Below are positions 750-63,500 of a DNA stretch of 64,000 nt, piece by piece. How positions within the stretch are numbered: the first letter of the stretch is position 1; each line of letters begins with the position of its first letter. The stretch is from Lepisosteus oculatus (Eukaryota; Chordata; Actinopteri; Semionotiformes; Lepisosteidae). The notes beneath the pieces are model-generated. The model was not told the origin of the DNA. It did not search any database and saw nothing but the letters and a program-made list of their open reading frames with translations. Position numbers and translations under genes: made by a program. The DNA is taken from the NCBI RefSeq assembly GCF_040954835.1, contig NC_090704.1, forward strand, positions 13,475,501 through 13,539,500, written 5' to 3'.

Positions 750-3700
750 TTAGCAGTCACTCCATTCAACTTGTCGAAGAACAAACTGAGGGAAATAAGA
801 TGTTGCCACAGCAGGTTCATATTCTGTAGCCTTCAGGCAGTTGACCAGTTCATCTGGAAGTAAGGTCGGACTCTGATTTGAGTCATCCATATGATATCCC
901 TGCCCTGCATAGAATTCGTCTTGATGTGTTCCAGTGAAACCACTGTCCAAACTTCCATCTCTTTCTTCCTTTGTAGTCAAATTTGTGCTTGATCTTTCAT
1001 GTGTCATGTTCACAAGAAAGCTTGTCAATATTCCACAAACCCCTGGAGAACTAGCTTCTTCTGCCTGGATGGGATTTATCCAAGTATGGGGAGGCAGGAG
1101 GAAAGTACTTTCAAGTCCTTCTGCTAACTCATTCTTTTGGACTTCCTTTGAAATCTGTGGCTTGTATCCATGCCCTTCAATAGGAGTCACGTTGAACTTG
1201 TAATTTTGTAAGCAAACAGGCTTCACTCTTTCTCTCTCTGGACCTTCTGCATCTTGAGGAAATAAACTCTTTTCAATGGACGATGGAATGATTTCTTCCA
1301 CTCTTGTGATAGGAGGGTCACTGTAAGTGGACAGCCATGAAGAATCAGAATAATTCCTTTCTTTTTCCTTGAAGAAACAATGATGAAAAAAATATTAGTA
1401 CTCATTATGAAACTGAATCTCCAAAACAGCTACATATTCCATTTTATCATTGAATCTTAATGACAGAAAACAGATTATAACTATTAAAAGGATTATAACT
1501 ATTTACTGTAACATTTTCTATGGAAACTGGACTAGTCTAGAGACTAAACTTAGAAAACCAGAATGTGGCAGGTCTAAATTTATTAACAAGTTTGCTTACC
1601 TGCAGCAGTTTAATTACAGTACTGTTTTCAACTTTGGGGAATTTTTCAATTAACCACCTTGGTCCTCTTAATGCCCATATCCTTTTAATTCTGTAAAAAA
1701 GGTCACCATCATCAATTGTACATAAAAAGTAGTAATGACCATCAATTAAATTAATATTTATCTGTCAATTGCAGGATGTATTGTAGGTTCAAACTAAAAA
1801 AGTAACTTAGCTTGAATGTATAGAAGCCACTAAGTATACAGGTTCTTTGGCACATGCAAGGACTATTGAAATTACCTCAGATTTAGGTGAGAGATCCATG
1901 TTGAATAATCTAATTCACGCCCACCATTGCACTTAAAAGTGACAAGTGACAGTTTTTGGCAGCAATGTTCTCAAGTTATTGTCTTGCTGGTCAAAAACAA
2001 GCTGTTGGCTTTATTTCTACTGGTCAATTTGTGTTTTCTTTCCTCATAAGCTAGTCTGTGCTTCATTAAGATTTCATCTGATGTTAGTGTTTCAACATCT
2101 CTGAATCACAGAAAAGAACACAGAGTACAAAGCAGCACATTTGAAATTCTAAAGAAATTGGAGGGACATGATTAGTATGTAGGAACCAAGGTTCCTGCTG
2201 CTTGTCACCACTTTTAGTTCTTTTTTGTTATCCCATTCCTTTCTGTCTATTATATACAGGTTGGCAAACCATCACAAATGCCAGATATATAGAAAAAGGC
2301 TGCTTTTGCCCTGAAGAATTAAATTATCCTGAGTCAATTGCCCTGAGCAAGACAAAATGGTCCATCTATTGGAGCACAAAGTGGACAGGCAGGTGTTGTT
2401 TGTATAAACTGAGATGGTGGCAATGAAGTCCCATATTGCTGTGATAGGTAGTAATTTATATGTTCAGATTTCAGGTACTCAGCAACAGCAATTCAGCAAC
2501 TGATCTTGAACCTGGACCTTGAATCAGGTAAAGAAAGGGGAACAGAAAAATATACTAGATGCTCATGTACTAAGCTGGAGAATCACTCACTGCTTAACAA
2601 TATCCACACCATGGGACTGTAAGGGTAAAGTGGTAATGCTAATATTACAGGGGTAATGTGACAATCTAGGCAAGGGGTCCTAAAAAAGCAGTTCCTAAGT
2701 GGTTTCCAAATTTGGCACAGCACGACTAAAGCATGGAGAGGCCAGAAAGAAACCATGGATACCACCTTTCTGGGGGCCCTGACAAGCCTCAAATTCTTAT
2801 TTTCAAACTTCTCAGGCTCAATGATAGAGAATTGTTTTTGAAGGAAATAGTCTTCCTCTGTTTGCTCAGTTCAGGGAAAGGCACAGCATATGTACTGTAC
2901 ATAGATTAGATCCCAGCAGGTGCTCAGGAGAAACAGGCTTTTTTAGCACAGAGGAAAGCACTGAAGGAAGTTTTCTTGTTGCATCCTCCATGCTGGTGGA
3001 CAGCAGCAGAATATTGAATGGAACATTCAATACGATCTGGGAAAGTGTATAAAAGTGTAGTCTTCCTCTGTGTCATACATGTAGCTAAAGACTATATAGA
3101 CCTGCCCCTGTGCTGTTCCTTCTTTGAAATATTGGGAAGGCTTTGAACATGCTCATTTGGGAATATGTAACTATATTAAATCTAGTTAACAAAAAAACTA
3201 AAGTAATGTATGATGTCTACAGATATAAAATGCTGTGAAAAGTAAAAACGGTTACCTTTTCCTGACACAATTCCAAAACATCAAATTTGCAAGAATTCCT
3301 ACAAGGATAGTTGCTGCAACAATGATACCAAAGACCATGGTAATATCTGGAAAAGAGTTGTAAAGGACATTTTTGTTCAATGATTGCACGTTTGGATAAC
3401 AAGCCCCATTTATGTACCACTGACCATTTTTATATAAGATTGAAAATCATAATAATTAAAATGACTGGAAAACAAGATTTATTTTCACTTAATGTTTTTT
3501 TATGTAGCAAAAGCATGTCTATCCAATCTCTTCTTACTCATTTTTGACTCCACTGATGGAGTTGGTTTGAACAGCTGGCCACTTGCTCTATATTATTGCT
3601 CTCTAAGTACATCACTGGCTATATAGATGTTATTATAATGTAACAGTAAGCACAACAAAATACAGCTTCTAATTTTACAGTTGTAAAGATGCAAAGGAAA

Positions 3701-6700
3701 GCTGATTTATCTTTTAGTGTGCAAGAAAGATGCTGGTGCTATATGAAGTTTGCACATGAATGGATTCATAGAAAGCATTTGTGTGACAAGAACTGTCAGA
3801 CAAGAAATGTAAAATGAAGTGATGTGTTGGGTTGATAAAATATCTGATTTACTGTACCAAGGCTGATAAAATCAACAGAATTCAAAATCTTTGTGTTCAA
3901 ATCAAAGCAAACTGTTACAATAATAAAATGCAATGGTAAGACCTCATTTAAAGACTGTGCACAATTGCTATCAGTTTTGTTATAATCTAGAATATTGTAA
4001 TATTTCTGTAAAAGTATTATTTAAAGACCTGAAAAGTACCAATACAGTCAAACCAGAAGACTACCTGAAGACCAACAGTGATCCAAAGACACAAGTGGAA
4101 ACTAAGAGGAATTGACATCAGAAAGACTATGGAACGCATCAGTTTGTATTGAAACAACAGGAAAGGACCTGATGAGATCTCTGGATCAACAATCTACAGT
4201 ACTTTTAACTAAATGAGAAAGATGGCCTCCTCTCATTTGTAACCTCTCTTCCATTCTCGCTAATCAAACCCAACAAAATGAATCAAGGCAATTCCATCAA
4301 AATGAGCAAAAACTACTGATTTACTGTTCAGCTCACTTACATTCTTTTACTTATTTACTAGTTTATAAATAGTAAGTGTCCATCTGCCAAGACACTGCTA
4401 ATAACAAAGAAGACAAAATGCCCCTTTCATAATTGAGTCTTTGTAATGTAAATCTGTAACAGAATTGTATTGAAATTAGAATGTAATGCTTTCTCTACGC
4501 ACTTATTTCTCCAACGCTTACCTAGCATGGACCCCAGAGGTTGATAGATCAGTTCTTCTCCCGGCGGTCCCTCGCCAGCTAAGGTGGATGCTGTCATGTA
4601 AAAGATGTATATGAAACCAGAATCCAGCTTTTCCAGCCACCGTTCTCTGGAAACATTCCCCTGGATCACAACTTAGGAGACAAACCAGTGCCATTCAATT
4701 CAATGTATTGCTTTTAAAATAGGTCTTTACCCAAAATAATCCACATGCTAATTACCTATTAAAACATCTATTTAACATTATTAATACCAAAACATGCATA
4801 CTATCTTTTCATGCTATACGTGAAAGAATAGCATGTTTGGGTGACATTACTAATTTTAAAAAACAGCAGTCCAGGGCAGTGATAGAATAAAAGAAATCAT
4901 ACTTTCATGCTACACATCGTTCTTTAGACATTATGGTTCACAAATAGTTCACAGAACAGGCTGTTTAAAACCAGAAATTATTTTTATTTTAGAAACTTAT
5001 AGAAGCACGTAGGTGGTTACTTTTCAGTGTTGCAAGGTTTTGCATTCTATTTGCATCACAGAAATCACAATGTTTGTCAGAAGAACAGGGGTTCAAGTTT
5101 AATTGAAGCAATACAAGACATTTACTTTTGCAGACTGATATTAATGAAGTAAATTGCACACATATTATTATTTGACTCTTGGTATATTTTTATGTGTTGA
5201 CAAATAAATAAAACAAAAAAAGCCCTAAGGACAAAATGCAATGCTGAAGGCAAGATTGTATTTACACATATTTGTGGTTCTTGTTCATAACAGAGTGGGT
5301 ATTTTTCTAGATAAAGTAAACGTAATATATAGATAGTGGAGTGATCTGTAGAGGTTTTAAACTGAAGAAAACAAAATAAGACTTGTTAAAGCAGCTCTTT
5401 ATCGAGTTTCAGAAGGGCATGTACATTTAGCCACACATGACTTCCGTTTTATGTCTTTCCTTCCTGTTTTGTTCACAGCAACAGACTAATTATAGCTGGT
5501 GGCTCACATGTTTTAGTGCCTCTGAAAGTACTTTGCACAAGACAGATAGCTGCTCAGGAAGATGAGCCTTAAGAACAGGCTTTAATTCATCTCCCTTATA
5601 ACACAGTTAATTCTCAGTTCTCAAAAGAAAAAAAAAAGGTTCAGTCTGACTTACAATTAGAAGCATTCTGAAGAGTCCCTATCTCTATTTAAAGGAAACA
5701 TCTCATTTGAAACATTACCTAAAAACATTTGGTTATGGTATGTGACATCTTGCTTGAACCCTGCTCTTCTATCTTCATCAAGCCCACCAGTACTAAAATT
5801 AAATATCACCATGTTTCATGTGCTTTTATTAGTGGTTATGCCAGTGTTGACCTAGAGCCGCCTAGTGGAGTGCAATGGTTTAAAATTATGATTCAGACTG
5901 AAAATACAACTGAGTTACGGGAACTCATAGCAGGATTTTCAGTAACAATTTGTGACAAAATGACTATACAGCAAAATGCTAAACAGCAGGTCTCTGTCAG
6001 ACAGATTGACTGGTCTATTCTATATATTCTATACATCAATTTATAAAACTCAGATATACCAATTATATAATTGTTGAAGAACACTTACTCTTTTTACAGT
6101 AATTTGAGCCTGTGTTTTTCCTCAGATAGATGGTATACTGTGTGATAAATCCTCTCTGCTGATGCAATGGAATTTCATCCCATTTGATGTGAATGCTCTC
6201 TCCTTCTGTTTTTAGCAATGAAATCTGTGGACCTGCTTGTGGTTCTGATATGGTATAAAATAAGAAAAGCAATTAATTTTCCACCACCATCTCAGATGGA
6301 AAACAAAATCCTAGATTTTGAGCGATTTAAACAATTTACAATGCATAAAAGAAGTACTGTAGTTAATTGGTGGTAAAGGAAATTTTCTTTGTATGTGTGG
6401 GGTTGGGGGTGGAGGCGTGGGGGGGCAAAGTTTACAAGTGAAACACATTTCTGACTTTAGAAACTGAAGTGAATCAGGCAGACAAATTTCTCTGTTTCCT
6501 GTTGTCAAGACTTTAACTTGACACAAACAGGTAAGTCTGAAAAGAGGTCTTGTACACCTGCTGTTATGTCTTTGAGTAGTGCTCATAAGAATAAGAACAA
6601 TGAGAATAAGAACTATGAGGGTGTTTAAGAAGAACAGTAACAATGACAAATAATTACTGTTTAAACTTACTCTCTTCCTTTGCATATATTTCAGAATAGG

Positions 6701-9700
6701 CTGGTTGCGTTTCCCCTTTTGCAGCAACACCATACAGTGAAATGCGGAACTTGATTCCAGGTTCATTAGCTAGTCAAAGGAAATAATTAATTATCTTAGT
6801 CTTTATGATTATTAACATACTAAAGATGGCTAGTTTGCCAACTTCAAGTGTGATGAAACAAGATCTACAAATAAGTGGTTAATAGATTAATTATGAAACT
6901 GTTAGTACCTAGGGTAACATTTGTTTTAAACCAGCCAGAAAGCTCACAGACCTTTCTGATTTGTACCTGCGCCAAAGGATCTGTGACATTTCCAGAATTT
7001 ATGGTAGTCTTTTCATGGTTCCTTATTTTTCGTTATTGAAATAAGAGATGAGCAGAGAACTGCCCACCAAAGTTGTTATTACTGGTAAAGTAGACTCATT
7101 ACATATTAACTCACATGATGATTTTTTAATCGAGAAAGTTCTTACCTTCCATACATGTAGAGTTGTGTTTAGTTTCCACTTTTCTCCATTGTATGTTCTG
7201 ATCTTCCCTATGCCACTCTACAATATACCAGAGCAGTGACTCACTGTGACAACAGTTAGAATCCCAGGTCAGGCACAAATAATTCCCTGCAGATATCAGG
7301 TTTGTGATTTTTGGTGCCCCTGAAACTGAAAATACAGATGCAATGCGGTATTTGCAAAAACAATTTTGCATGGTTTCTTATTTGAGGTCAGTTGTAGTTG
7401 TTATTCAGCCATGGAGCATCTGCTCAACAGTTGGAATTATTATTTATAATTACTTTATCCAACGATTAATCTTGTGGTTAGGTTTATGACCAGTGCTAGG
7501 GTTAGACTTAAACCTTGGGTTAGGATTATGGTAAAGGGTTTGGCTAGGATTCATACAGTACTAGGGCACTTTCGATGTGAAGTTGAAGCACTGAACAATA
7601 AAGAGTTTCCGCTGCTCTGCAAAGCTGCCATTGTCTTCTTGACAAAAACAAATGCAACGTACTGTTAAAAAAAACTCCAACATTTTGTATGCTGATAGTA
7701 TTATGTAGTATAATCTTATATTTTGCATATGTGTGATCATCTGATCCTACAGAAGTGTTAGTTTTTTTTCCCATTTTATTAGAAATTCTAATTGTCAATC
7801 AAGGAAATGTAGTTGTATATTCAACGAAACAAAATATTATTGCACCCCTCACAAATCACTCCGGTGTATGGGAGGTCGGAGCCGCAGGCGCGTACCATCC
7901 GGTTACTGTATTTAAGGGACTGAGAGCTATGTGCACATTCGAGGTTGTTTTGAGACTCCGCCAAGGGTGCGTCTTTTCTCCTCTCCTGTTTGTGATCGTC
8001 ATGGATTTAAGCACCTCAACACCTCTAAATTTGCCATGGTTCTCTCCCGGAAAAGAGTGGATTGCTCCCTCCATGTGAGGGGGGAACAGCTGCCCCTAGT
8101 GGAGGAGTTTAAGTACCTCAGGGTTTTGTTCACAAATTCACAATTAGGAAGGATTGTGAGATTGATCCGGGGATTGGTGCAGCGGCTGCAGCAATGCGGA
8201 AGCTGTACTGAACCTTTGGAGGGGAAACGGGAGCTGAATTTTCAGACGAAGCTCTCCGTTTTCCGGTCGGTCTACAATCCTTGTCCTCAACTGTTTTCAC
8301 TATGGGTGGAGACTGAAAGAATGAGATCCCGGGTACAAGGCGGAGGTTTCTCCATAGGGTGGCTGGGCTTACTTTCCGTGGCAAGCTGAGGACCTTGGAA
8401 TAGAGTCGCTGCTCCTCCGGATCAAGAGGGACCAAGTGAGATGACTGGGGCATCTGGTGAGGATGCCCCCCGGGCAGCACTCGCTGGAGGTGTACCAGGC
8501 ACAGCCCACTGGGAAGAGACCCCAGGGTAGACCCAGGCCACATTGTATTTCTCAGCTGGACTGGGTATATATGGGAGACCCCTCAGGAAGAGCTGGAGGC
8601 TGTTGCTTGGGAAAGGGAAGTCTGGTCTACATTGCTCAGGCTGTTATCACCGCTACCCTCGCCAACAGTAAGCGGTTAGAAAATTATGATGATGGTTTAA
8701 TGGTATGCATTGCAACCCAATATTCACTAAAAGAGTGTAGTTTAAGTCTTAATACCTTTCTGCCCAAGGATTAGCTCTGCGGCAGGTGAACTCCCTGCTG
8801 AGGTAAAGGTAGTGACAAGAAGAGAATTTACTGTGGCTGGAATTATCACTTGGTATTGAGTTTCGTTGGCATCACATGTAAGAATGACAGGTTCCTTCCC
8901 ATGCTCTTGGTAAGACACCTGGTATCCCCGAATAACTCCTCTGGAATCTTCAGGAGAAAGTGCCTTAATGAAAATGAGATAGGTGAAATGATCAGAATGT
9001 TTTCCAAAAAGGAAATATAATGTATCCAAATAAGAGTTTATTAATATTTAAATCATATTTAACATTTCATAGTTTTCTATGCTGCCTTTTTTCTGTTAAT
9101 TATTTGCTCACTAATCCATCCCCTTAAATACTGAATGTGCATTTCAATTTATCAATTATGGAATACAGATATACTGTATATATACACACCTTAGATAAAT
9201 AACAGTATACATGTACAAAAAATGTTTTGGTTTGTTTCTTTTCCAGTAGAGGGCGCTCCAAGATGTCGTGTTGACATCGACCTTTTAAATCCCTTCTGAC
9301 ATCAATACTGAGTGAAGTAAAGAAGTTTACGTCGGTTTTGCAAGACTGAATGATAGCCTATTTTAAGAAACACTGCAAAAGCAGTTAAATTGTCCAGACA
9401 TGTTAGATTATTATATTTATACTGTATGATTATGTACAGAATACATATATACAGAATCGTTTTGTTGTACGTGTTCTGTGAAAGCAGAGTATTGTTTGTG
9501 CGCTGACATTATAAATAAGTTAAACAATCTTTAAAGATTTGGTCTGAACGTAAAATACCTAAATAAAACAACAACAGTCCGGAACCTTCAAAAGCTGTAC
9601 CTTCCAAAGTATAGTCACAGTTTGTGTTCCGTTCGCCCAAGTGCGTCCTAATATCCTCCACACATCTAGTTTTCTTGAAGGTGCTTAAAAAACCAACACA

Positions 9701-12700
9701 ACGTAAGAAGCGTGTCCGTTAAATTCGTATTTTGCATTTGGAGACTTTATACAAGCAAAACAAATATAACTGAAAAGAGTAAGCCTTTGTCTTAGCCTTA
9801 CAGTGTAGTAAGAAAGATACATTAAAACTAAAAAAAACTATTCTTACAAAAATCACGTAGCAGTTTTTATGTATGTTTTGCAAACGAAGAACACATTATA
9901 GTCTGGATGCTGGATGATTCAATGGTATGTTTAAAAAATGTGATGGTTTTGCCTAGTCAGAGCAGTGGCAACCACATCCTGATTTTTTTTCTCGTAGTCT
10001 GCATGTGAATCTACGAAGAATGAACATAGTACATAGTGTTTCTAAAGGCCTAATTTAGCCATATTTCCTCCTCCAAGTAGAAGTCAGATCTGTGGTACCT
10101 GCTTCTGGGCTTCTCTCCCAGTATAATAAGCTCCAGACACTGCATGAGGAATTCATTTTACTTCTACAGCTGCGAATCTGAAACTCATAACATTTGAAGG
10201 GCTGAAATCCTTTCAGTACAATTTTGTCCTTTTTGGGTTCATTTTCCTGTTCTTCCACCTGCAAGAAACATTAACTTACTGAAAAAACAGTTTCCTTCTT
10301 ACATATTCAGTACATATTCAATGACTATACAAGTATACTTACAGTATACATTAATGGTATAATTAATATCCATCTATTTTCTAACCACTTCTTCTAAAGA
10401 GTCACTGGGGACCTGGAGCCTATCCCAGCAAGCAACAGATGCAAGACAGTTTACACCCTGGACAGGACGCCAGTCCAGCACAGGGCAGACACATTGACAC
10501 TCTCACCTAGAGTAAGTTTATTTCAGTAACCATTTAACCTACCACTGTATGAACCAACCTTGAGGACACCAACGTGTACATGGGGAGAACCTACAGACTC
10601 CACACAGATAGCCCCCCTGGTCTGGAACTAAACATAGGGCTCCAGCACTGCAAAGCTAATTATTGCACCTCCATGCAGCCCTTTGGTATTATGAAAATGT
10701 ATAACCATAATTATGAAATATGATGATTTTAACATTTTCATAACTTAGTGCTTAACACTAACACGATAAGCTTGACATCACCTCTTACCCACTCTCTGCC
10801 ATGACGAGCTGTTCTGTATCGCACATTAATACTAAACAACTCAGATGTCACTGACGTATTCCAGTGAACCACGGCTGCTTGAGAAGAATTCACAAAATCT
10901 ATCTTTGTAATAGTTGGTGGATCAGGTATCACTGCAATAAAAGCAAGAAGGTTATCAGCAATATATTGACGTTTTGAAAACCTTTTTTCTGCGATTGTGA
11001 AATTATTGGAGATCTGCCTCCAGATAGCTTAATGATAATGCATCCCTTACCTATATTATTCACTGTTAGCAATAGCACGTCTGACAGCGCTTCTCCCAGG
11101 AGATTATATGCCTTCACAGAAACCATGTATTCGATATCCTTTTCCACGCTCGATAAAGGGACCTGGATATGATCTTTTGTAATTGAAAACGTTTTGCTTC
11201 TGTTTTTACTGTGAAAGAAAAAGCAACAGTTTTGTACTTTGTAACTGTAAAATAAATCTGTGGAAAATTGTTGTGTTTTAAAATGCAAGTATACCGTATA
11301 CTGTAAACATGACTTTACTCTTAGAAACGTAGTTAAATGTTTGTGTGCTTTCAAATTAAGAATGGATGTGTTTTCTACTCTGTATTCTGTATTCTACTTA
11401 AAGTGAATAGTTTCCAAATGCATCTCGTAAACTTTACGAGATGCAGCTGGAAGTAACCAAATCACTTTTGCGTTGTATTTTCTTTCAATGAAAAGCCGTT
11501 TCCCACTCCAACTGCACAGTATTCATTTTAAAAAAATAAATGCTTAAGAAAGTCAAGAGAAACGAAAATTTTCAAATCAAATACGTCATGTTCATTTTTT
11601 AATTTTATTTCCTTGATTGGAACTCTCATGTTGCAGTTGAAGGTTTCGGAGAGCGCAATTACGCCCTCTGGTGTCAACGTTTCATACATATTCATTTGGT
11701 GCTTTACAGTTGTGTGTATGCTAATTTTGTATTATCAATTAAAGAATGGTAATTGTATAAAATGGGCTTACTGTTGAAATGTCACTGTGTAGACTGTATT
11801 TATGTGGGTTTTCCTTCCTTTCTGCCAACAACATGTCATGTTCTTAGAATTTCTTCGGGCAACACAATTTAAATTTGTTGGTTTGTCTGGAGGATCTGAG
11901 AAGATGAAAACATTTTTAATTTCATGAGGCAGTATAGCTTTGTGTAAAATCAGGGAAAGATATATCATGATGTAATTTAATGCATTTGCTATTGACATTT
12001 TAAAACCTGTGAATTGCGCTCTGCTTATAATAAACTCAAACAACATAGACAAGCCAGTTTGTGTAAGACTTTCATTAATGGCCACAAACAGTTTCAGCCC
12101 AAAGCAGTTGAACCTAAACCTCAGCATTTAGAGTCTTGGAAGATACAATCATACTCTTTTAAGCCTTTACAATTATGAATGTAACTCCTTAAATGAAGTT
12201 AATGTATTGAGAGAAAAATCATTAAAAATGAAGAAATTTGCAACATACATCCTGGCTCAATATTCTGGCCGCAGACTGTTTCCAATGTATTTTTCTTGCA
12301 TACCACAGTGGAATGAGGTGCCCTAAAGTTTGTGAGTTGAAGTTTCACAGTAGAGCAATTTAGTTTCTCCAGGGGCTTCTGTTCAGTCTCATTCAGATAG
12401 ATTACCAATCTTTCATTACAGTTTGCTTTATATGAATGGCAGAGAACTGTGATATTGGAACCCATGAGAAAGATTGGTTTGGGCTCTATCTGCACGATCC
12501 CATGACACACTACCTCTATACAGCCTGTACAGAAAAAAAAACACAAAACAAAATCAACTTTTAAACTAAAGCGCATAATACAAAACATACTCATGGATTT
12601 CTTCAGTGGCATAGCAGGAACGGTAGCTACAGTGTGGTTGTCTTTGAATTTAAGTGATAAAAGATTGACTGCAAAGTTAAAAAAAAGGCAACAGCAAGTG

Positions 12701-13433
12701 AAAACATTTAGTTTTTAACACTTACACCATATACTTTGTAGAAGTGCTCAAAAAGGTTCAAGTAACAAGGCTATAGTCTAGCTAAAGCTCAGGACTGGTG
12801 TGAGGACAATTCTGAAAACTGTGCTGTGCAATAAGATGTATCAAAGGAGAAATTTAAGCAATTTAAAAATTCTCACTTCTTTGGGATGAATGTTATTGTA
12901 ATGTCTGACATTAAAATAGGTTTTCTTCTTTTATAGCTATTGCAAAGCCAACATTGTCCAAAGAGCAATGTGTTCAAGAAAACACTTTCTGTGATATACT
13001 GTATATGAGTAACATATTGAGTTTTACTATTTAGAGGTGCATGGACAGAATATATTGGTGTCTTTAACAAGTTTTTGGAACATGAAACTCTCTTACAGGG
13101 GTAGAAATCAATCAACCATTTCTTCCAAGTGTAAACCTTTTATTTCTTGGTTGCCATAAATAACATGACCTATTACAGTCACCACTACCTTAAATTAATA
13201 CATGCACATACTGTACACTACTATGTGTTTTTAAATATGTTTCCTTAAAAGTGTCAGGATCCTTTTTTCAGGTGAACAGTCTGACTAGTTGTTTTACACA
13301 CTACATCATGTAACAGTACTGGTACTGCATGCTCTCTACATCACAATCCCCAGCCGTTCTTACCTCCATCTTTCCAATAGAAAAGGGAGACAAAAATCAT
13401 CAACATCTCCCATTTTTTACTGTAGAAACCCAT
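750..13433 (-). CDS. IL23R: Interleukin-23 receptor, tall form with Ig plus five FNIII domains
   Basis: Signalling subunit of the IL-23 receptor, a type I membrane protein that pairs with IL12RB1 and signals through JAK2/TYK2 and STAT3. Coding exons, 5' to 3': 13433-13364 (ATG, hydrophobic signal), 12524-12249 (Ig-like), 11895-11772 and 11208-11051 (D1), 10931-10789 and 10258-10099 (D2), 9683-9601 and 8963-8756 (D3), 7319-7146 and 6769-6671 (D4), 6244-6089 and 4671-4522 (D5), 3346-3256 (membrane span), 1690-1600 (box1), 1367-750. All junctions are in phase and give 866 aa. Family marks: GYPPDKP at the Ig/D1 junction, IVIP between D1 and D2, a degenerate WSXWS (CSVWSLLYW), a box1-like PRWLIEKFP, GYKPQIS (about 1155-1172) and a C-terminal LLPDE...YFPQ (about 786-797). 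Both YXXQ sites fit STAT3 docking. The tail matches IL23R rather than IL12RB2. Human IL23R (629 aa) lacks D3-D5, so the length resembles IL12RB2. Confidence 0.9.
7474..7562 (+). repeat. Degenerate GGGTTA-like simple repeat
   Basis: In the IL23R intron between 7319 and 8756, variants of GGGTTAG recur (CTAGGGTTAG, TTGGGTTAGG, AAAGGGTTTGG). It resembles a decayed telomere-type or GTTAG satellite and has no perfect tandem run. A similar short patch, in opposite sense, occurs near 57368-57405. Confidence 0.4.
7855..8690 (+). mobile_element. Decayed LINE (non-LTR retrotransposon), 3' part of reverse-transcriptase ORF
   Basis: This lies inside an IL23R intron. The translation 7931-8389 contains LPLVEEFKYLRVLFTN and then a KLSVFRSVYNP...LWVETERMRSRVQ stretch, the typical end of the polymerase region in fish LINEs. 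A second frame from about 8457 continues with RMPPGQHSLEVYQAQPTGKRPQGRPRP, the usual C-terminal tail; I shorten neither here beyond what identifies it. The two parts lie in different frames and the 5' part is missing, so the copy is dead. GC content is higher than the surrounding intron. I cannot assign the clade from this piece. Confidence 0.8.
9243..9256 (+). promoter_or_regulatory. CTCF-type core motif
   Basis: CCAGTAGAGGGCGC fits the CTCF core CCASYAGRKGGCRS at all 14 positions. It lies in the IL23R intron between exons 9601 and 8963. A weaker match (12 of 14) in the opposite orientation lies near 11655-11668, and another 12-of-14 match on the minus strand lies at 5855-5868. A single motif match is not proof of binding. 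Confidence 0.4.
10370..10682 (-). mobile_element. tRNA-derived SINE with TGGA-type tail, minus orientation
   Basis: Read on the minus strand this copy has the head (cysteine-free, GGAGGTGCAATAATTAGC type), the middle block resembling 'CATGTTCTCCCCATGTACACG', and the tail 'GGACTGGCGTCCTGTCCAGG ... GATAGGCTCCAGG ... AAATAGATGGAT'. The same family appears near 19190, 24170, 39480, 55800, 58645 and 60900. It sits in the IL23R intron between the D2 exons at 10258 and 10789. Confidence 0.75.
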
Positions 13434-25300: not shown

Positions 25301-28300
25301 TTTCAAAGTGAAGGCTATAAGTAAAAAAAACAACACCCATCCACTCAGTAACATGATTCAGTGACGTGTGGAACCTTTTTTAGCAGGAATAATGAAGTAA
25401 ACTTTTCCTGTAACAGTTTATCAGACTCTCACATGCCCTGGGAGTAATTCTGTCCCACTTCTCCTTCCAAAACGGCTTCAAGTCAGTGATGTTTGAGGGC
25501 ATTCGTTTATGCACAGCTCTCTTTAGGTCCAATAACAGCATCTCAATGGGGTTGAGATCTGGACTTTGACTTGGCCATTCCAATACCTTGATTCTTTTAT
25601 TTTTCAGCCATTCAGTTGTAGATTTACTGGTGTGTTTTGGAGCATTGTCCTTTTGCATGATCCACTTTTGGCTAAGCTTTAGCCTGTGGACAGATGTGGA
25701 GAGATGGTATCACATTTTCCTCTAGAATGTGCTGGTATAGAGAAAAATGTATGATGGACACAATGATTGTGAGGCATCCAAGTCCTGCGGTTACAAAGCA
25801 GACCCAAATTATTACCACATATCAACCGTCAAGCCACGATGCTTGACGGTTAATATGAGGTTCTTGTGGTAGTACACAGTGTTTGGTTTTCATCAAACAT
25901 GCCATTCTGCATTACAGCCACACAACTCCACTTTGGTCTCATCTGTCCAGAGAACATTGTTCCAGAAGTGATACAATTCATTCAGGTGCTGTTTTGCAAA
26001 CCTAAGGTGTGCAGTAATTTTCTTTTTGGAGAGAAGGGGTTATCTCCTGGATACATTCTACAAAAGTTGTTCTTGTTCAGTCTTTTCCTAAAGGTGAAAT
26101 CATGAACTCCAATATTTATTTTCTGGGCTGCCCACACTTGGGTAGACTGGCAACTGTCTTGAACTTTCTCCATTTGTAAATTATCTTTCTTGCTGTGGAA
26201 TGATAAGACTTCATATTGTTTAGAAATGTATTTTTTAACCTTTCCCAGACAGATGAGCAGCAACGATTCTTTGTCTGAGATCATCACAGATATCTTTTTA
26301 CCTAGGCATCATGACTGTTACCACAAACCTGAAAGCTGCAGACTGAAAAAGTTACTGATTTTATATACAGTTTGAAGTATTTCCTGATGACTAAATATTT
26401 ATGTGCAGTTGTTTAGCAGCACCTGATTCTAATACCTTCTTATCTGATATTGAAGCAGTACTTTTTCACACATCTGATTTTTGGCTGATTTTTTTATTCA
26501 ATGACAAACTAAAATTTGTGTGTGTTATTTGTCAGATAAGGTTAGATTTATTTACTGTAAGGACTCGATGAGGACTACACTTTTCTATACAGTATTGCTC
26601 TTTCTTTGCAGGCAAAGAGAAGAATACCGAAGAAGGATTCATGATTATTACAATTAAAACATCACAGTCCTTAAAATCAGGAAAGAACACAGCACGGAGA
26701 ATCAAATGGTCAAGAGAGGTAATCCATATTAAGAAGTTATTTAAGTTATATTAAATAACTTTACTTTAGAGTATTTAGTAAGATAACACATCATGTTAAT
26801 ACAATGTTCATTACAGCACAATGTAAAAAATACAGACATGTTAAGGTTTATGTGGGTGAAATTACTGTAAATGTACTGATGACTTTGATGATGATGAACA
26901 TATCCTTAAATTACATATCCTTCACACCTGAAGAAGGCTCCACGGCCGAAACGTTGTGTTCTCTTTCTTCTTTTTTTCAGCATGGAATAAACCTATTACT
27001 TGTTCCTTTGCAGCCTACGCATGCTGACGCAGCTACCCACCTGAACTACTATATCCTTAAATTATCTTTCATTTAATCTTTTTCCAGTTTTCTGTTTTCA
27101 GTTGTGTTATTGTTTAAGTAATTTAATTGAAAAATAACCTAAGAAGTAATGTTTTTCTTTTTTTGTTCTTAAGGTAGAAAAAGTCCCATGTTTAGATGCA
27201 TTAAGTAAGCAGAGCAGCCAGGCACTGGTTGGGGGAACTCTTGGCTACACTGACACATCACACTGGTATTCCTTCTCTGCAAACACTAGCCGTGCTGAAG
27301 AGACACCTATTAGCGTTTTTACTGGTAAGCCAACACATTTGGACTCCTGAATTATACCACAGGATATTCCAAAATTCTGGATGATAAAGATAATGTAGCC
27401 CTACTTCACGCACATTCACTTGTGTACCAAAGATAAAAGATGATCAGGTGAACCATTTAATTATATTCTTCTACAATGAAGAACAGAGCATTCAGCTTTT
27501 AGTTCAATGGACAATTCAAACACTCTTATTCATCTGGTGTTTCTTATTAAGCTGATATTTTTCTAAATCCTGAATTCTGAATCCCTTTGTGAAATCATGT
27601 TTTTACGAATGGGCACTAACAGACTTCTGAAATGTATTGTGCATTTTTTATTTGATTTTTACAGGAGAAGATGAAAGTCAATACAGTATTCCTGGGTCAG
27701 TTGGAAAATTGGTTGCACAACAATTACAGTATGGAAATGTTGTCCGCGTTGGCATGAATGGAGCATATAGAAGGTAACAGCAGTTTTTGCAAGACTTATA
27801 TTTACAAATGGCACAGTGATCCACATTCATATAACATCAGAGACTAATATATAACTTATAAAAGGCTACCATGTTCATCGACAATAACATTATAATCGTA
27901 GAGATCCTTACATGTTGACGTGCATTGGAATAGGTTTTACTGCTTTTCTCTTTCCATTTTAAGTGCTAGTCTGGAAAAACAGATAGACTGGTGGGTGTAG
28001 ATTGGATAGATTGAGGGTAAAGGGTATAAAGACCAGTGCAATTAACATGAAAACTATTGGAAGTTCATGTAAAAATATCAAAACTCTTAATGAAAATAGC
28101 TAATCGCATAAGACTCCAAATCAGATGTGTTGAAATTACTGGTCATGTATGATTTTTTTTATTTTTCTATATTTAATGAGAATCAGAGAAAATTCAGAAA
28201 AGGACACTGAAAGAGAAGAACGTGTTCAAAGTGTGAAACATTCAGCTGCTGAAGTCACATCTGAAGTAGTCCCTCTTAGCATGAAAGATGAACTGGAAAA

Positions 28301-29601
28301 AAAGACTGCTAGAATACTTTCACCAAAATCCCAGGATATATACTTGCCTCTTCCAGTAAGGTTTTTTCCTTTATCAAAACCTACTTCTTTATTTTCTTTG
28401 CATGTCATTGGTTTTATTGCTCATTGTTTTATCATTAGAATTTGTGAAGAGAAATTTTATATACCTTGACTCACTGCACATGTACTGATAAGAATCTGAA
28501 TATCTTTTTTTTATTTTGCAGATTGTTAGTAAGACATATCCTGTGGTGTATCATCATGATTATCAACATAAACCATTCTGCAGCCAAGGCTTGCACGCTT
28601 TTGAGGATAAAGAGTCTTTGCATCAAAGGGCAGAAGGAAGGAAAAATGATAAAAATGAAGTCTATTCTGCTATAGTCCGCATAACCCAGTCGATGCAGGA
28701 AGACCACATTATTGGCAAGGCATCACAACGAGAAAGAATGGAAAAGCTTTTTCCTTTGAGACCAGAAACAAACCTGAAAAGGAACAAATCTGGGAAGAAT
28801 AATGCGAATGTTCAAGTGTTAGCAAATGATGGAAAAAACAAAACATGTCTGGACTTTAAAAATGTCCCTCAAGGGATTACTACTCATAATATCTCAGCCC
28901 TATCGCCACGTATTGCTTTGAATAAAGCACCCCAAGGTCTTATCAGTGCATCAAAGTTTAAGAACTCCTCTAATGCTAGTGTAGGTCCAATACAGAATGG
29001 AGTAAATCCAAAACAGCCTCTTGAATTTAATGACTTGTCCACAGACTTTTTAAAAGGGGTGGAAATGATGGTAAAAACAAATTCAACCAGTGGTGGAAAC
29101 CAGACAGCTTCAGTTTTACAAAAAAACATAAGTGCATACCAGGAGAGCAAGAACTACATAAACTTTACAAAGCCACTCAGATATAACAAGAATGAAACCA
29201 TTCTTACCAATCAGCTTTCTCTTATGGAAATGTGCCAATCAGCACATACTTTACTACCAGAGACCTTTATTATGTCAGAAAGCACGGGTGCATATGAGAT
29301 TAATTTTCTTCAGTCAAGGCCAAACAGCAGCACAGAGTACACAGGGAAATTCCAAGAGCAGTGTCCTGCAAAAAAAGGATCACCAGAAGGCAACTTTTCC
29401 CCAATACCTTCGAAGACAGATGTAACAGAGATCTGCACAGAGGTCACTAACAGCATTGGGAGGCCTCAGGATGAAAACAAACCAGATCAAGTTCCTGAAG
29501 AAGAAATGAAGCCTCATACAAAGCTTACATCCTCCGTTGACTCATACGAAGTTATCAGCATTCCTACTGCAGAATGTGACATTCAGAGTGTTTCAGAATG
29601 A
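22400..29601 (+). CDS. C1orf141: C1orf141-like protein of unknown function
   Basis: Coding exons: 22400-22474, 22971-23158, 23909-24036, 26612-26718, 27174-27324, 27665-27773, 28181-28355 (the acceptor could instead give 28187) and 28522-29601. All junctions stay in phase and give about 670 aa, longer than the human protein as I recall it. The N-terminus LLASFNVLDSSSEKILKKHAR resembles human ILEKLDVLDKQAEIIL. Exon 3 has an IRPF motif. Exons 7-8 have PLSMKDELEKKTARILSP followed by YPVVYHHDY, resembling human PLCFEDEL...NPIIFHDTEY. These human strings are from memory. The position between IL23R and SLC35D1 agrees. The protein is hydrophilic, Ser/Asn/Lys-rich and probably disordered, with no signal peptide, membrane span or known domain. 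The last exon encodes more than half of it. The start is the first ATG after the acceptor at 22392. Confidence 0.85.
24165..24930 (+). mobile_element. tRNA-derived SINE split by a later insertion
   Basis: The head (24168-24343) has GTGGCGCAGTGGTTAGCATT and GGGTTCAGTTCTGAAC, then TGTTCTCCCCATGTTC. The tail resumes near 24740 (AACTGGGAAAACTGGCC) and ends ATTGATGGATGGG at about 24930, with GGATAGGCTCCAGC inside. Roughly 390 bases between the two parts do not belong to this family. It lies in the intron between exons 3 and 4 of the C1orf141-like gene. Confidence 0.7.
24344..24742. mobile_element. Unclassified insertion inside a SINE
   Basis: Foreign block interrupting the SINE. Its ends read TGTCATGCCAC (start) and GCCGTGACAC (end), which are loosely inverted to one another. 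It contains a 72-codon open frame (24364-24582) rich in Lys/Arg/Glu with no recognisable domain. Boundaries are uncertain by some tens of bases and the class is unknown. Confidence 0.4.
25330..26555 (-). mobile_element. Tc1/mariner transposon relic (DD34E transposase)
   Basis: On the minus strand 25658-25380 encodes QKDNAPKHTSKSTTEWLKN and then SPDLNPIE, with 34 residues between the catalytic D and E. The first catalytic aspartate is in WTDETKVEL near 25930-25960. Upstream pieces (about 25982-26287) lie in another frame, and in-frame stops interrupt the middle, so the element cannot make transposase. TGTGTGTTATTTGTCAG near 26520 resembles the subterminal region of fish Tc1 elements. I could not fix the terminal inverted repeats, so the outer limits are approximate. 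It lies in the intron before exon 4 of the C1orf141-like gene. Confidence 0.85.
26922..27045 (+). repeat. Short interspersed repeat with hammerhead-like core, plus copy
   Basis: This contains CACCTGAAGAAGGCTCCACG, GGCCGAAACGTTGTG, a pyrimidine-rich stretch, GGAATAAACC and GCAGCCTACGCATGCTGACG. It is an inverted partner of 21118-21250 and better preserved. CTGAAGA ... GGC(loop)GCC ... GAAAC resembles a minimal hammerhead core, although the base next to CTGAAGA is unpaired in my folding by eye. It lies in the intron between exons 4 and 5 of the C1orf141-like gene. Confidence 0.65.
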
Positions 29602-30635: not shown

Positions 30636-39902
<9,267 letters not shown>

Positions 39903-45360: not shown

Positions 45361-53525
<8,165 letters not shown>

Positions 53526-60500: not shown

Positions 60501-63500
60501 AATTAAAAGCATACTGTGATAGTCGGCATATAAAAACAATATAAAATGTGTAGTGATATATTATACAGTAGATGCTAAGTTGTAACTGACTGTACTGAGC
60601 TGCATTAGTCTTTTCTGTATGGGTTTAAGCATCTGAAATCAATTTCATTTTTCAGTGATTGTGCTAACAAACACACCAGCCCTGTATGGCAAGTCAAGTG
60701 GATAGAGCAGGAGAAGGGAACTACAGGAGAGGACAAGGGGGAGACCCTCATTTCAGTGTCTGCAGATGGCAGGATTACCAAATGGTACCTTAGAAAAGGC
60801 CTAGACTGCATTGGTAAATCATTTATTTCTTTTTATTCGTTTTACTCAATGGACACCACCTTTGAAATATCTTCACAAAGCACATCTTATAATTTTAGAC
60901 ATAGTGGCCATGCCTTACAGTACTGGAACTCTGGGTTCAATTGCAGACTGGGGTGCTGTCTGTGTGGAGTTTGTATGTTCTCCCCAAGTTCTCTTGGTTT
61001 TCCTCTAGGTGTTCCAGATTCCTTCCACAGTCCAAATAATTGGCTTCTGGGAAAAGTGTGCACTGTCTTGCAGTGGACTGGTTTCCCATCCAGGGTTTAT
61101 TCAGATTTTTGCCTGTTGTTTGCCAGGATAAGCTCAGGCTTCCAAATGACCCTGAACTGGAAGAAGTGTTTAGAAAATGGATACATGGATAATATATTTT
61201 TTTCCTTCATTTGCTTGAAAAGAATGTAGAATGTTCCCTGAATAAGTTGCCATTTCTGATGAATATTTCTGGGAAAGGGGGTTTACGGTGTGGCAAGAAT
61301 CAGCTTGCTTTTTTTTAAATTGAGTTTCTATCTTTCAGAATTTTAACATTTGATGGGAAAACAAAAATTTAAAGTTATTTTAATGTTTTTTTTCTCAGAC
61401 CTGATCAAACTTAAAAGGACGAGAAATGAAAAAGTCAAGAAACCAGCAGGCGAGAAAGAACGAAAGACTGAGGCTTTAATTTCAAGACAGGCACCTGGGC
61501 TGTGTTTTGATTTCCATCCTAAGGCAAGTTTGACATTTCCTTTAACTAATTAATATATTATTAATGCATATTAATGTATAATGGCACTGCAATATTGACA
61601 TATTGACACAACAATATTTTGATTAGAATAATTAGTCTTTCAGAACTGAATTAGTGATAAAGTAATTTGATATGCTGATTATGTCATATTTATTTGTGAA
61701 CTTCTCAAATAATGGAATACAAGATTTATTAGTGACATTTCAGAGAAACTAAATGTCTTCTGAGTTACATAACTAAGCATTTTAGATGGACTAATCCAGT
61801 AAATCAGGCAACCACAATTACTTTTGTGTTCTGGGTTATCCCAGTGAACTCTGTTATGTTGACATTATTATTATTTGGCATTGATTCACTTGTTTTTCAT
61901 TTCCTTGCAGGACTCAAACATTTATCTGGCTGGCACAGAAGAAGGTCATATTCATAAATGTTCATGTTCATATAATGAACAATATCTGGAGACTTATAGA
62001 GCTCACAAAGTATGTCTTTGTTAGTTACTTTTTGTATATTATATGGAAGATGTAGTCTGTAACTTTAATGACTACATAGCTGTTTAAATCTATCTAGTAG
62101 AAGTATATTTGTTTATTTCTGTGGTTTTGTCTATAAAATAGTTTTAGCACTGTGGCTTATGTCTTGGTGTTTTCCTGAATCTCATTTCATTACTCAGTTT
62201 AATCTTTTAATGTACCCTTCATAGATATGAAGCTGTGTAGAATAAAAATATTTCAAACAGAAAGCTGTCTTGACTGAAGACGGTCAAGGTAATGTTTTGG
62301 TATAATGTTTTGCTTAAATCTTTCAAGAAAAAACGCATCGGCTTTTCAGATGCTAGATACTTACAACAACATACTGTATTTGCTTTCTAATTCTAAATGT
62401 AGAATCTATCACCTGAGGAAAGGTTACATGACTGTTTCTCTTTCAGGGGCCTATTTACAAAATTGCCTGGTCCCCCTTTTGCCCTGATGTGTTTCTGAGT
62501 TCTTCAGCTGACTGGACTATTCATCTCTGGAGGCAAGATCTGTTTAAACCAGTTCTTGGCTTTGCCTCCACGTACAGAGCTGTGTTTGACATAATGTGGT
62601 CCCCTAAATTGGCCACTGTGTTTGGAGCAGTGAATGAAGGAAGAGTAGAGATCTGGAATCTTGGTTCTAGCATGTAAGTGTTCCCACCTAAAAAAACATT
62701 TTTCTTTCAGGACGGCAGTGTCACTTTGTGCGTGACTGTGTTGCGTCTGTATCTGAACATTTTATTTTTTTCATTACAGTTTTTTCACTAAGATCTTTAA
62801 AACCTATATGTAAATTATAATAAAATGGAAATTGGACACTGTGAAAATAGACACCATTACTACTACTGAAATGTATATTCTAGTATAAATATATATTCCA
62901 ACAAATTGATTAGATTAAGTTTTGTTTGCTTGTCTTTGGTACTTTCAATAGATATCAGAAACAAGCAGGCTGTGAAGAGACTGTGAGACTTAAGAATGTA
63001 GAATGTAACCCCTAAAATAACCAATAACTGAATTTTTTAAGTTTAGTCTTTTGCCATAGTGGAATTTTCAGTTGTTTGGAAGAGACACTGCAAGGTTTGG
63101 GGTGTACATATGCCTGAGAGATGGTGACTGAATCCTGTTTGGGGATATGCTGCACATACCAGTTGAAACCTGTGTATCCTTGCCCTAAATGCACAGTCGT
63201 TACCAAATGAGCTAGTTTACTTAGTAAGACTATAGACATACTGTATTAGGCTGTAAGTAAGTAATTTTTTTGTATCCTTTTCCATCTGCAGTTTTATCTG
63301 CTGTTTAACTTTAGTAAAAGAAAATTAAATAATTTATTACTGTGTAAAGGACTATAGACACTATTCATCAATACAGTAACATTAGAAATAACACTTACAT
63401 CATGTATTTCAGTCTGGACCCTATTGCTGTGAGCTCCGCCAGCCCTGGGATAAAACTGACCTCATTACTGTTTGCCAATGAAACGGACTGTATTCTCGTT

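Follow-up and report, generated by a model that had tools for sequence, protein, structure and literature searches.

The 64,000-nt window analysed here (Lepisosteus oculatus, assembly GCF_040954835.1, contig NC_090704.1, positions 13,475,501 to 13,539,500 of the forward strand) carries on its minus strand a receptor gene that is very probably the orthologue of IL23R, encoding a tall, membrane-anchored chain in which three FNIII domains (D3-D5) stand between the D1-D2 module and the membrane; on the same reading tallness is most likely ancestral, D3-D5 having been lost in the tetrapod form. In the predicted model, the complete gene runs from 13433 to 750 in 15 coding exons and 867 codons including the stop (866 amino acids), with no internal stop and with GT-AG borders at all 14 introns, a tally that is partly so by construction since the exon borders were picked by hand for frame and GT-AG. 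The encoded protein comprises, in order, a signal peptide, an Ig domain, D1-D2, D3-D5, a transmembrane (TM) helix and an IL23R-type tail (Table 1), of which the cytoplasmic part amounts to 236 residues. The 19-residue hydropathy of the TM helix is 2.66, with no other region of the receptor exceeding 1.6, and the tail has two YxxQ sites, YKPQ and YFPQ, both sites of the human tail being kept. Reading frame, domain order, genomic position and motif conservation are shown by the analysis.

The first-pass annotation had drawn the receptor at 3256..9683, past both ends of which the gene extends, and had counted seven in-phase D3-D5 exons where the model has six (D3a to D5b in Table 1). Its junctions 10099/9683 and 4522/3346 recur exactly in the gene model, in phase 1, and the GYKPQIS, LLPDE and YFPQ motifs it named are all present in the tail. 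The D3a-D5b block measures 870 nt and is in phase 1 at each end, so that its loss or skipping preserves the frame. An open reading frame (ORF) at 2102-1990 (LTSDEILMKH...) was ruled out as a further exon separating TM from Box1: by eye, translation continued from TM into it meets a stop after about 40 codons, and the TM and Box1 exons join in phase.

To see whether the D3-D5 exons stand out from chance, the D3-D5 region of five other receptors (human and mouse IL12RB2, mouse gp130, LIFR and IL27RA, two of them as provisional sequences) was turned into a profile and run against the 2152 window ORFs of at least 20 amino acids; as the control, the search was repeated on five versions of the window shuffled in blocks of two bases. 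D5a, D3b, D5b, D4a and D3a took the first five places among the 2152 ORFs, each on the minus strand and with E from 4.9e-14 to 0.0026, and D2b and a D1b frame came sixth and seventh; the best E in the shuffled windows ranged from 0.12 to 3.3. The remaining exon, D4b, ranked eleventh (E 2.9), though at the correct position of the profile. Five of the six exons thus bear out the proposal of three FNIII domains between D2 and the membrane. Pfam fn3 was found five times in the full receptor protein (E 3.3e-23), and singly D3, D4 and D5 scored 23.0, 18.5 and 24.1 bits, each below the curated cut-off of 25. Searched alone against PDB, D3-D5 matched IL12RB2 best (1.7e-20), then LIFR (3.9e-19) and gp130 (8.2e-16).

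Segments of the receptor were then aligned with human IL23R and human IL12RB2 by the Smith-Waterman method, with 200 shuffles per segment. The Ig domain scored 142 (z 26) against IL23R and 52 (z 4.2) against IL12RB2, and the z values also favoured IL23R for D1 (24 vs 15), D2 (11 vs 6), TM/Box1 (18 vs 5) and the tail (15 vs 3.7). D3, D4 and D5 were noise against IL23R (z -0.6, -0.1 and -0.7, respectively) and reached z 15, 4 and 22 against IL12RB2, the last value agreeing with the resemblance noted at first between D5 and that of IL12RB2. For the ectodomain, PDB matches were IL12RB2 8odz_D (2e-45, residues 28-597), LIFR 8d6a_B (2.6e-43) and human IL23R 5mzv (1.1e-42), the last covering only residues 6-310. 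The receptor has the IL12RB2-type layout of an Ig and five FNIII domains, but not an IL12RB2-type Ig sequence or tail, and six D3-D5 exons stand in place of the short stalked ectodomain of mammalian IL23R. A short ectodomain was not taken as defining IL23R orthologues, because it is the mammalian state and is not found in zebrafish il-23r either, as far as the excerpted description of the latter goes.

Among the evidence for IL23R identity, synteny weighs most. In the flipped window the order and strands are DNAI4(-), MIER1(+), SLC35D1(-) and receptor(+), which we take to be the human order and orientation, with the receptor in the place of IL23R; by the same order, IL12RB2 would presumably lie past the left edge of the window, which is 749 bases from the receptor stop codon. 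The top match of the ORF at 60609..61229, assigned to DNAI4, was 9fqr_Hx (2.8e-21), which bears the depositor's name CFAP100.

Compared with known receptors, human IL23R has in common with the window receptor the Ig domain, D1, D2, a degenerate WSXWS, TM/Box1, the YKPQ and YFPQ tail and the genomic position, but has a stalk of about 30 residues where the latter has D3-D5. IL12RB2 shares the ectodomain of Ig plus five FNIII domains and gives the best match to D3-D5, but its Ig, juxtamembrane and tail regions match weakly and its place in the cluster is different. Three membrane-proximal FNIII domains are also found in gp130 (IL6ST), LIFR and IL27RA, of which LIFR nearly equals IL12RB2 in ectodomain score, while gp130 and IL27RA score lower.

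Phylogenetic trees were small. The Ig-D2 tree of five rows (the fish receptor, human IL23R, two IL12RB2 and gp130) joined the fish receptor with human IL23R at 84/87, which is under the support limits, and neither of its two branches passed both limits; the same held for all four branches of the D1-D2 tree (7 rows), while one of three and two of four branches passed in the D3-D5 trees of 6 and 7 rows. The branches passing both limits join mammalian IL12RB2 or gp130 pairs. The fish D3-D5 branch is long (1.3-1.6), which would count mildly against recent capture from an IL12RB2. With so few rows, the trees do not decide the identity or history of the receptor.

Several points weigh against the reading of the gene as an IL23R orthologue with an ancestral tall ectodomain. 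Grouping the fish receptor with IL12RB2 in the Ig-D2 tree was not rejected (p-AU 0.138, 5 rows), and the best D3-D5 trees do not group the fish with IL12RB2, although that grouping was not rejected either (p-AU 0.229). By local-alignment identity D1-D2 is even between human IL23R (57/190) and human IL12RB2 (60/185), and D2 alone leans to IL12RB2 (33/93 vs 25/96 for IL23R). The earlier description of Ig/D1/D2 and tail as IL23R-like is backed by score for each of these parts, strongly so for Ig, and not by D1-D2 identity. In addition, the human comparison sequences are provisional beyond their PDB-checked parts, the species compared besides this fish were mammals only, and the ligand binding, pairing and signalling of the receptor are what we infer.

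A tall ancestor, with D3-D5 lost later in tetrapods, is the simplest history, of which the small trees are no proof. One frame-keeping loss of the six-exon block would be a simple route to the short form. The first-pass proposal of a tall ancestor with later loss is supported as the simplest history; the trees do not establish it, and with mammals alone for comparison the lineage and date of the loss are tentative. The reverse course, from a short ancestor to a fish receptor lengthened by D3-D5 taken over from a neighbouring IL12RB2 through exon transfer or unequal crossing-over, seems unlikely to us. From zebrafish to humans, IL23R and IL12RB2 are described as neighbours in almost every case (PMC12162339), the matching phase-1 ends of the block mean that a transfer would be in frame, and the p-AU of 0.229 leaves D3-D5 free to group with IL12RB2. 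However, the best trees place D3-D5 on its long branch apart from IL12RB2, identity to human IL12RB2 is much the same for D1-D2 (32.4%) and D3-D5 (29.5%), and an Ig-CHD-FBN-TM receptor has been proposed as the class archetype (PMC1963337, section 8).

That splicing leaves the six D3-D5 exons out and yields a short IL-23R, alone or beside the tall one, is quite improbable: skipping of the whole block would be frame-neutral, which makes a short isoform worth seeking, but each of the six exons has an open frame and canonical splice sites, and five retain clearly recognisable FNIII sequence of a kind that should have been lost under neutral decay. Hardly credible is that the gene is IL12RB2, with IL23R-like motifs ancestral and common to both receptors, as the five-FNIII architecture, the best single PDB match of the ectodomain, the unrejected Ig-D2 grouping and the equal D1-D2 identities would allow, since the z values favour IL23R (Ig 26 vs 4, TM/Box1 18 vs 5, tail 15 vs 4) and the place beside SLC35D1 is that of human IL23R, IL12RB2 being expected past the window edge.

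Table 1. Exons of the receptor gene and neighbouring genes in the window.
Feature	Position	Strand	Basis
Exon SP, start codon and signal peptide MGFYSKKWEMLMIFVSLFYWKDG	13364..13433	-	gene model; aligns with human IL23R leader in 5mzv from residue 6
Exon Ig, N-terminal Ig domain	12249..12524	-	gene model and Smith-Waterman
Exon D1a	11772..11895	-	gene model and Smith-Waterman
Exon D1b	11051..11208	-	gene model and Smith-Waterman
Exon D2a	10789..10931	-	gene model and Smith-Waterman
Exon D2b, degenerate WSXWS (SVWSLL)	10099..10258	-	gene model and PDB match
Exon D3a, phase 1 to 0	9601..9683	-	gene model; profile E 0.0026
Exon D3b, phase 0 to 1	8756..8963	-	gene model; profile E 5.1e-05
Exon D4a, phase 1 to 1	7146..7319	-	gene model; profile E 7.8e-04
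Exon D4b, phase 1 to 1	6671..6769	-	gene model; weak profile E 2.9, expected profile position
Exon D5a, phase 1 to 1	6089..6244	-	gene model; profile E 4.9e-14
Exon D5b, phase 1 to 1	4522..4671	-	gene model; profile E 5.1e-04
Exon TM, transmembrane helix ITMVFGIIVAATILVGILA	3256..3346	-	gene model; hydropathy
Exon Box1, juxtamembrane JAK region RIKRIWALRGPRWLIEKFP...	1600..1690	-	gene model; E 1.1e-4 vs human IL23R C-terminus (provisional sequence)
Exon Tail, cytoplasmic tail with the human-type YKPQ and YFPQ sites, and stop codon	750..1367	-	gene model; E 2.8e-7 vs human IL23R C-terminus (provisional sequence)
SLC35D1-like exons	30636..39899	+	tblastn, human SLC35D1 (provisional sequence), 10 segments, 39-96% identity
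MIER1-like exons	45460..52067	-	tblastn, human MIER1 (provisional sequence), 10 segments, 34-100% identity; ELM2 match below threshold
ORF with DNAI4/WDR78-like exon	60609..61229	+	8j07_k2, dynein axonemal intermediate chain 4, E 1.1e-19

Two introns of the receptor gene contain repeat-like sequence by eye: a SINE-like fish repeat between D2a and D2b (10680-10380; CTGGCGTCCTGTCCAGGGTG ... GGGATAGGCTCC) and a decayed retroelement-like fragment with overlapping ORFs on both strands between D3b and D4a (8700-7860). Between the receptor and SLC35D1, a 369-residue ORF on the plus strand (28492-29601), with no Pfam match up to E 1, presumably occupies the place and strand relation of human C1orf141 and may be its counterpart, and a minus-strand ORF at 25380-25709 is transposase-like by eye, resembling a Tc1/mariner element. 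The MIER1 region includes two tandem copies of a 49-base unit that are 95% alike (48267-48364). Neither Rfam nor a tRNA scan gave a match in the window.

The mammalian stalk exon was also tested as a possible remnant of D3. Exon 8 of sheep IL23R is 90 nt by coordinates, codes for 30 residues and is omissible in frame (PMC4748472), and phmmer aligns the human stalk with the first part of the fish D3. In an end-fixed test, the human stalk matched the fish D3 at p 0.0025, and at p 0.0485 with the first four residues held; under the latter setting, the human and mouse IL12RB2 D3 gave p 0.85 and 0.48. Compared exon to exon with the fish D3a, the human, sheep and mouse stalks (the mouse one a provisional sequence) gave p 0.05, 0.16 and 0.70, respectively. 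Among the nine targets per stalk, the control pieces D4a and D5b equalled or beat D3a for all three, with D5b at p 0.012 (human), 0.04 (sheep) and 0.02 (mouse). A D3 origin of the stalk exon is not supported, control exons being as good as or better than D3a, and D5b as a relative of the stalk is a lead at most.

The central point, extra FNIII domains in a fish IL-23R, has been in print since 2007 and is not new in kind. In zebrafish il-23r, FNIII (FBN) domains were reported and a transmembrane domain was said to be lacking (Liongue and Ward, 2007; PMC1963337), and the excerpted text of that paper frames the difference in IL-23R domains between fish and tetrapods as teleost versus tetrapod, not as mammalian loss. 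Compared by description, the zebrafish gene (BN000859) is, like the window receptor, an IL-23R orthologue by synteny with FBN domains as in IL-12Rb2; it is reported without a transmembrane domain, whereas the window receptor encodes a helix, a Box1 region and a full tail. In the literature searched, in which subscription papers were mostly not covered, a tall IL-23R in fish is described only in PMC1963337, and none of the texts reports one that is anchored in the membrane. An IL-23R orthologue is reported from shark (PMC6238376, in whose excerpted text domain detail is absent), and the excerpt of PMC4929537 does not mention IL-23R. To this the window receptor adds a predicted helix and a tail carrying two YxxQ sites, together with D3-D5 in one chain.

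The domains of the receptor suggest how it may work. The Ig domain and D1-D2 would bind IL-23 (p19/p40), as in the solved human complexes, and D3-D5 would form a rigid spacer, like that of IL12RB2 and gp130, determining how high the two chains stand and how they approach each other. Folded domains would in this way do the job of the unfolded mammalian stalk, holding the binding module off the membrane, and the tail would recruit JAK2 and, through YKPQ and YFPQ, STAT3. In a review (PMC7600943), the mammalian stalk, deletion of which gave active homodimers, is described as a spacer replacing three FNIII domains. We consider it fairly likely that the bony-vertebrate ancestor had a tall, signalling-competent and membrane-anchored IL-23R, that IL-23 first acted via two tall chains in gp130 geometry, and that the short stalked form arose in tetrapods when six exons were lost in a single event that left the frame intact.

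IL-23 is an important target of drugs, and human IL-23R is exceptional in being a short chain whose partner is tall. The existence of an intact tall IL-23R that has both helix and tail suggests that IL-23 signalling does not in itself require this difference in height, and makes the tall chain a natural comparison for what the mammalian stalk replaced. A further possibility is that the reported lack of a transmembrane domain in zebrafish il-23r comes from an incomplete gene model or is peculiar to zebrafish, and is not a general fish trait. The window receptor is apparently an intact fish-type IL23R, and would be useful for dating the loss of D3-D5.

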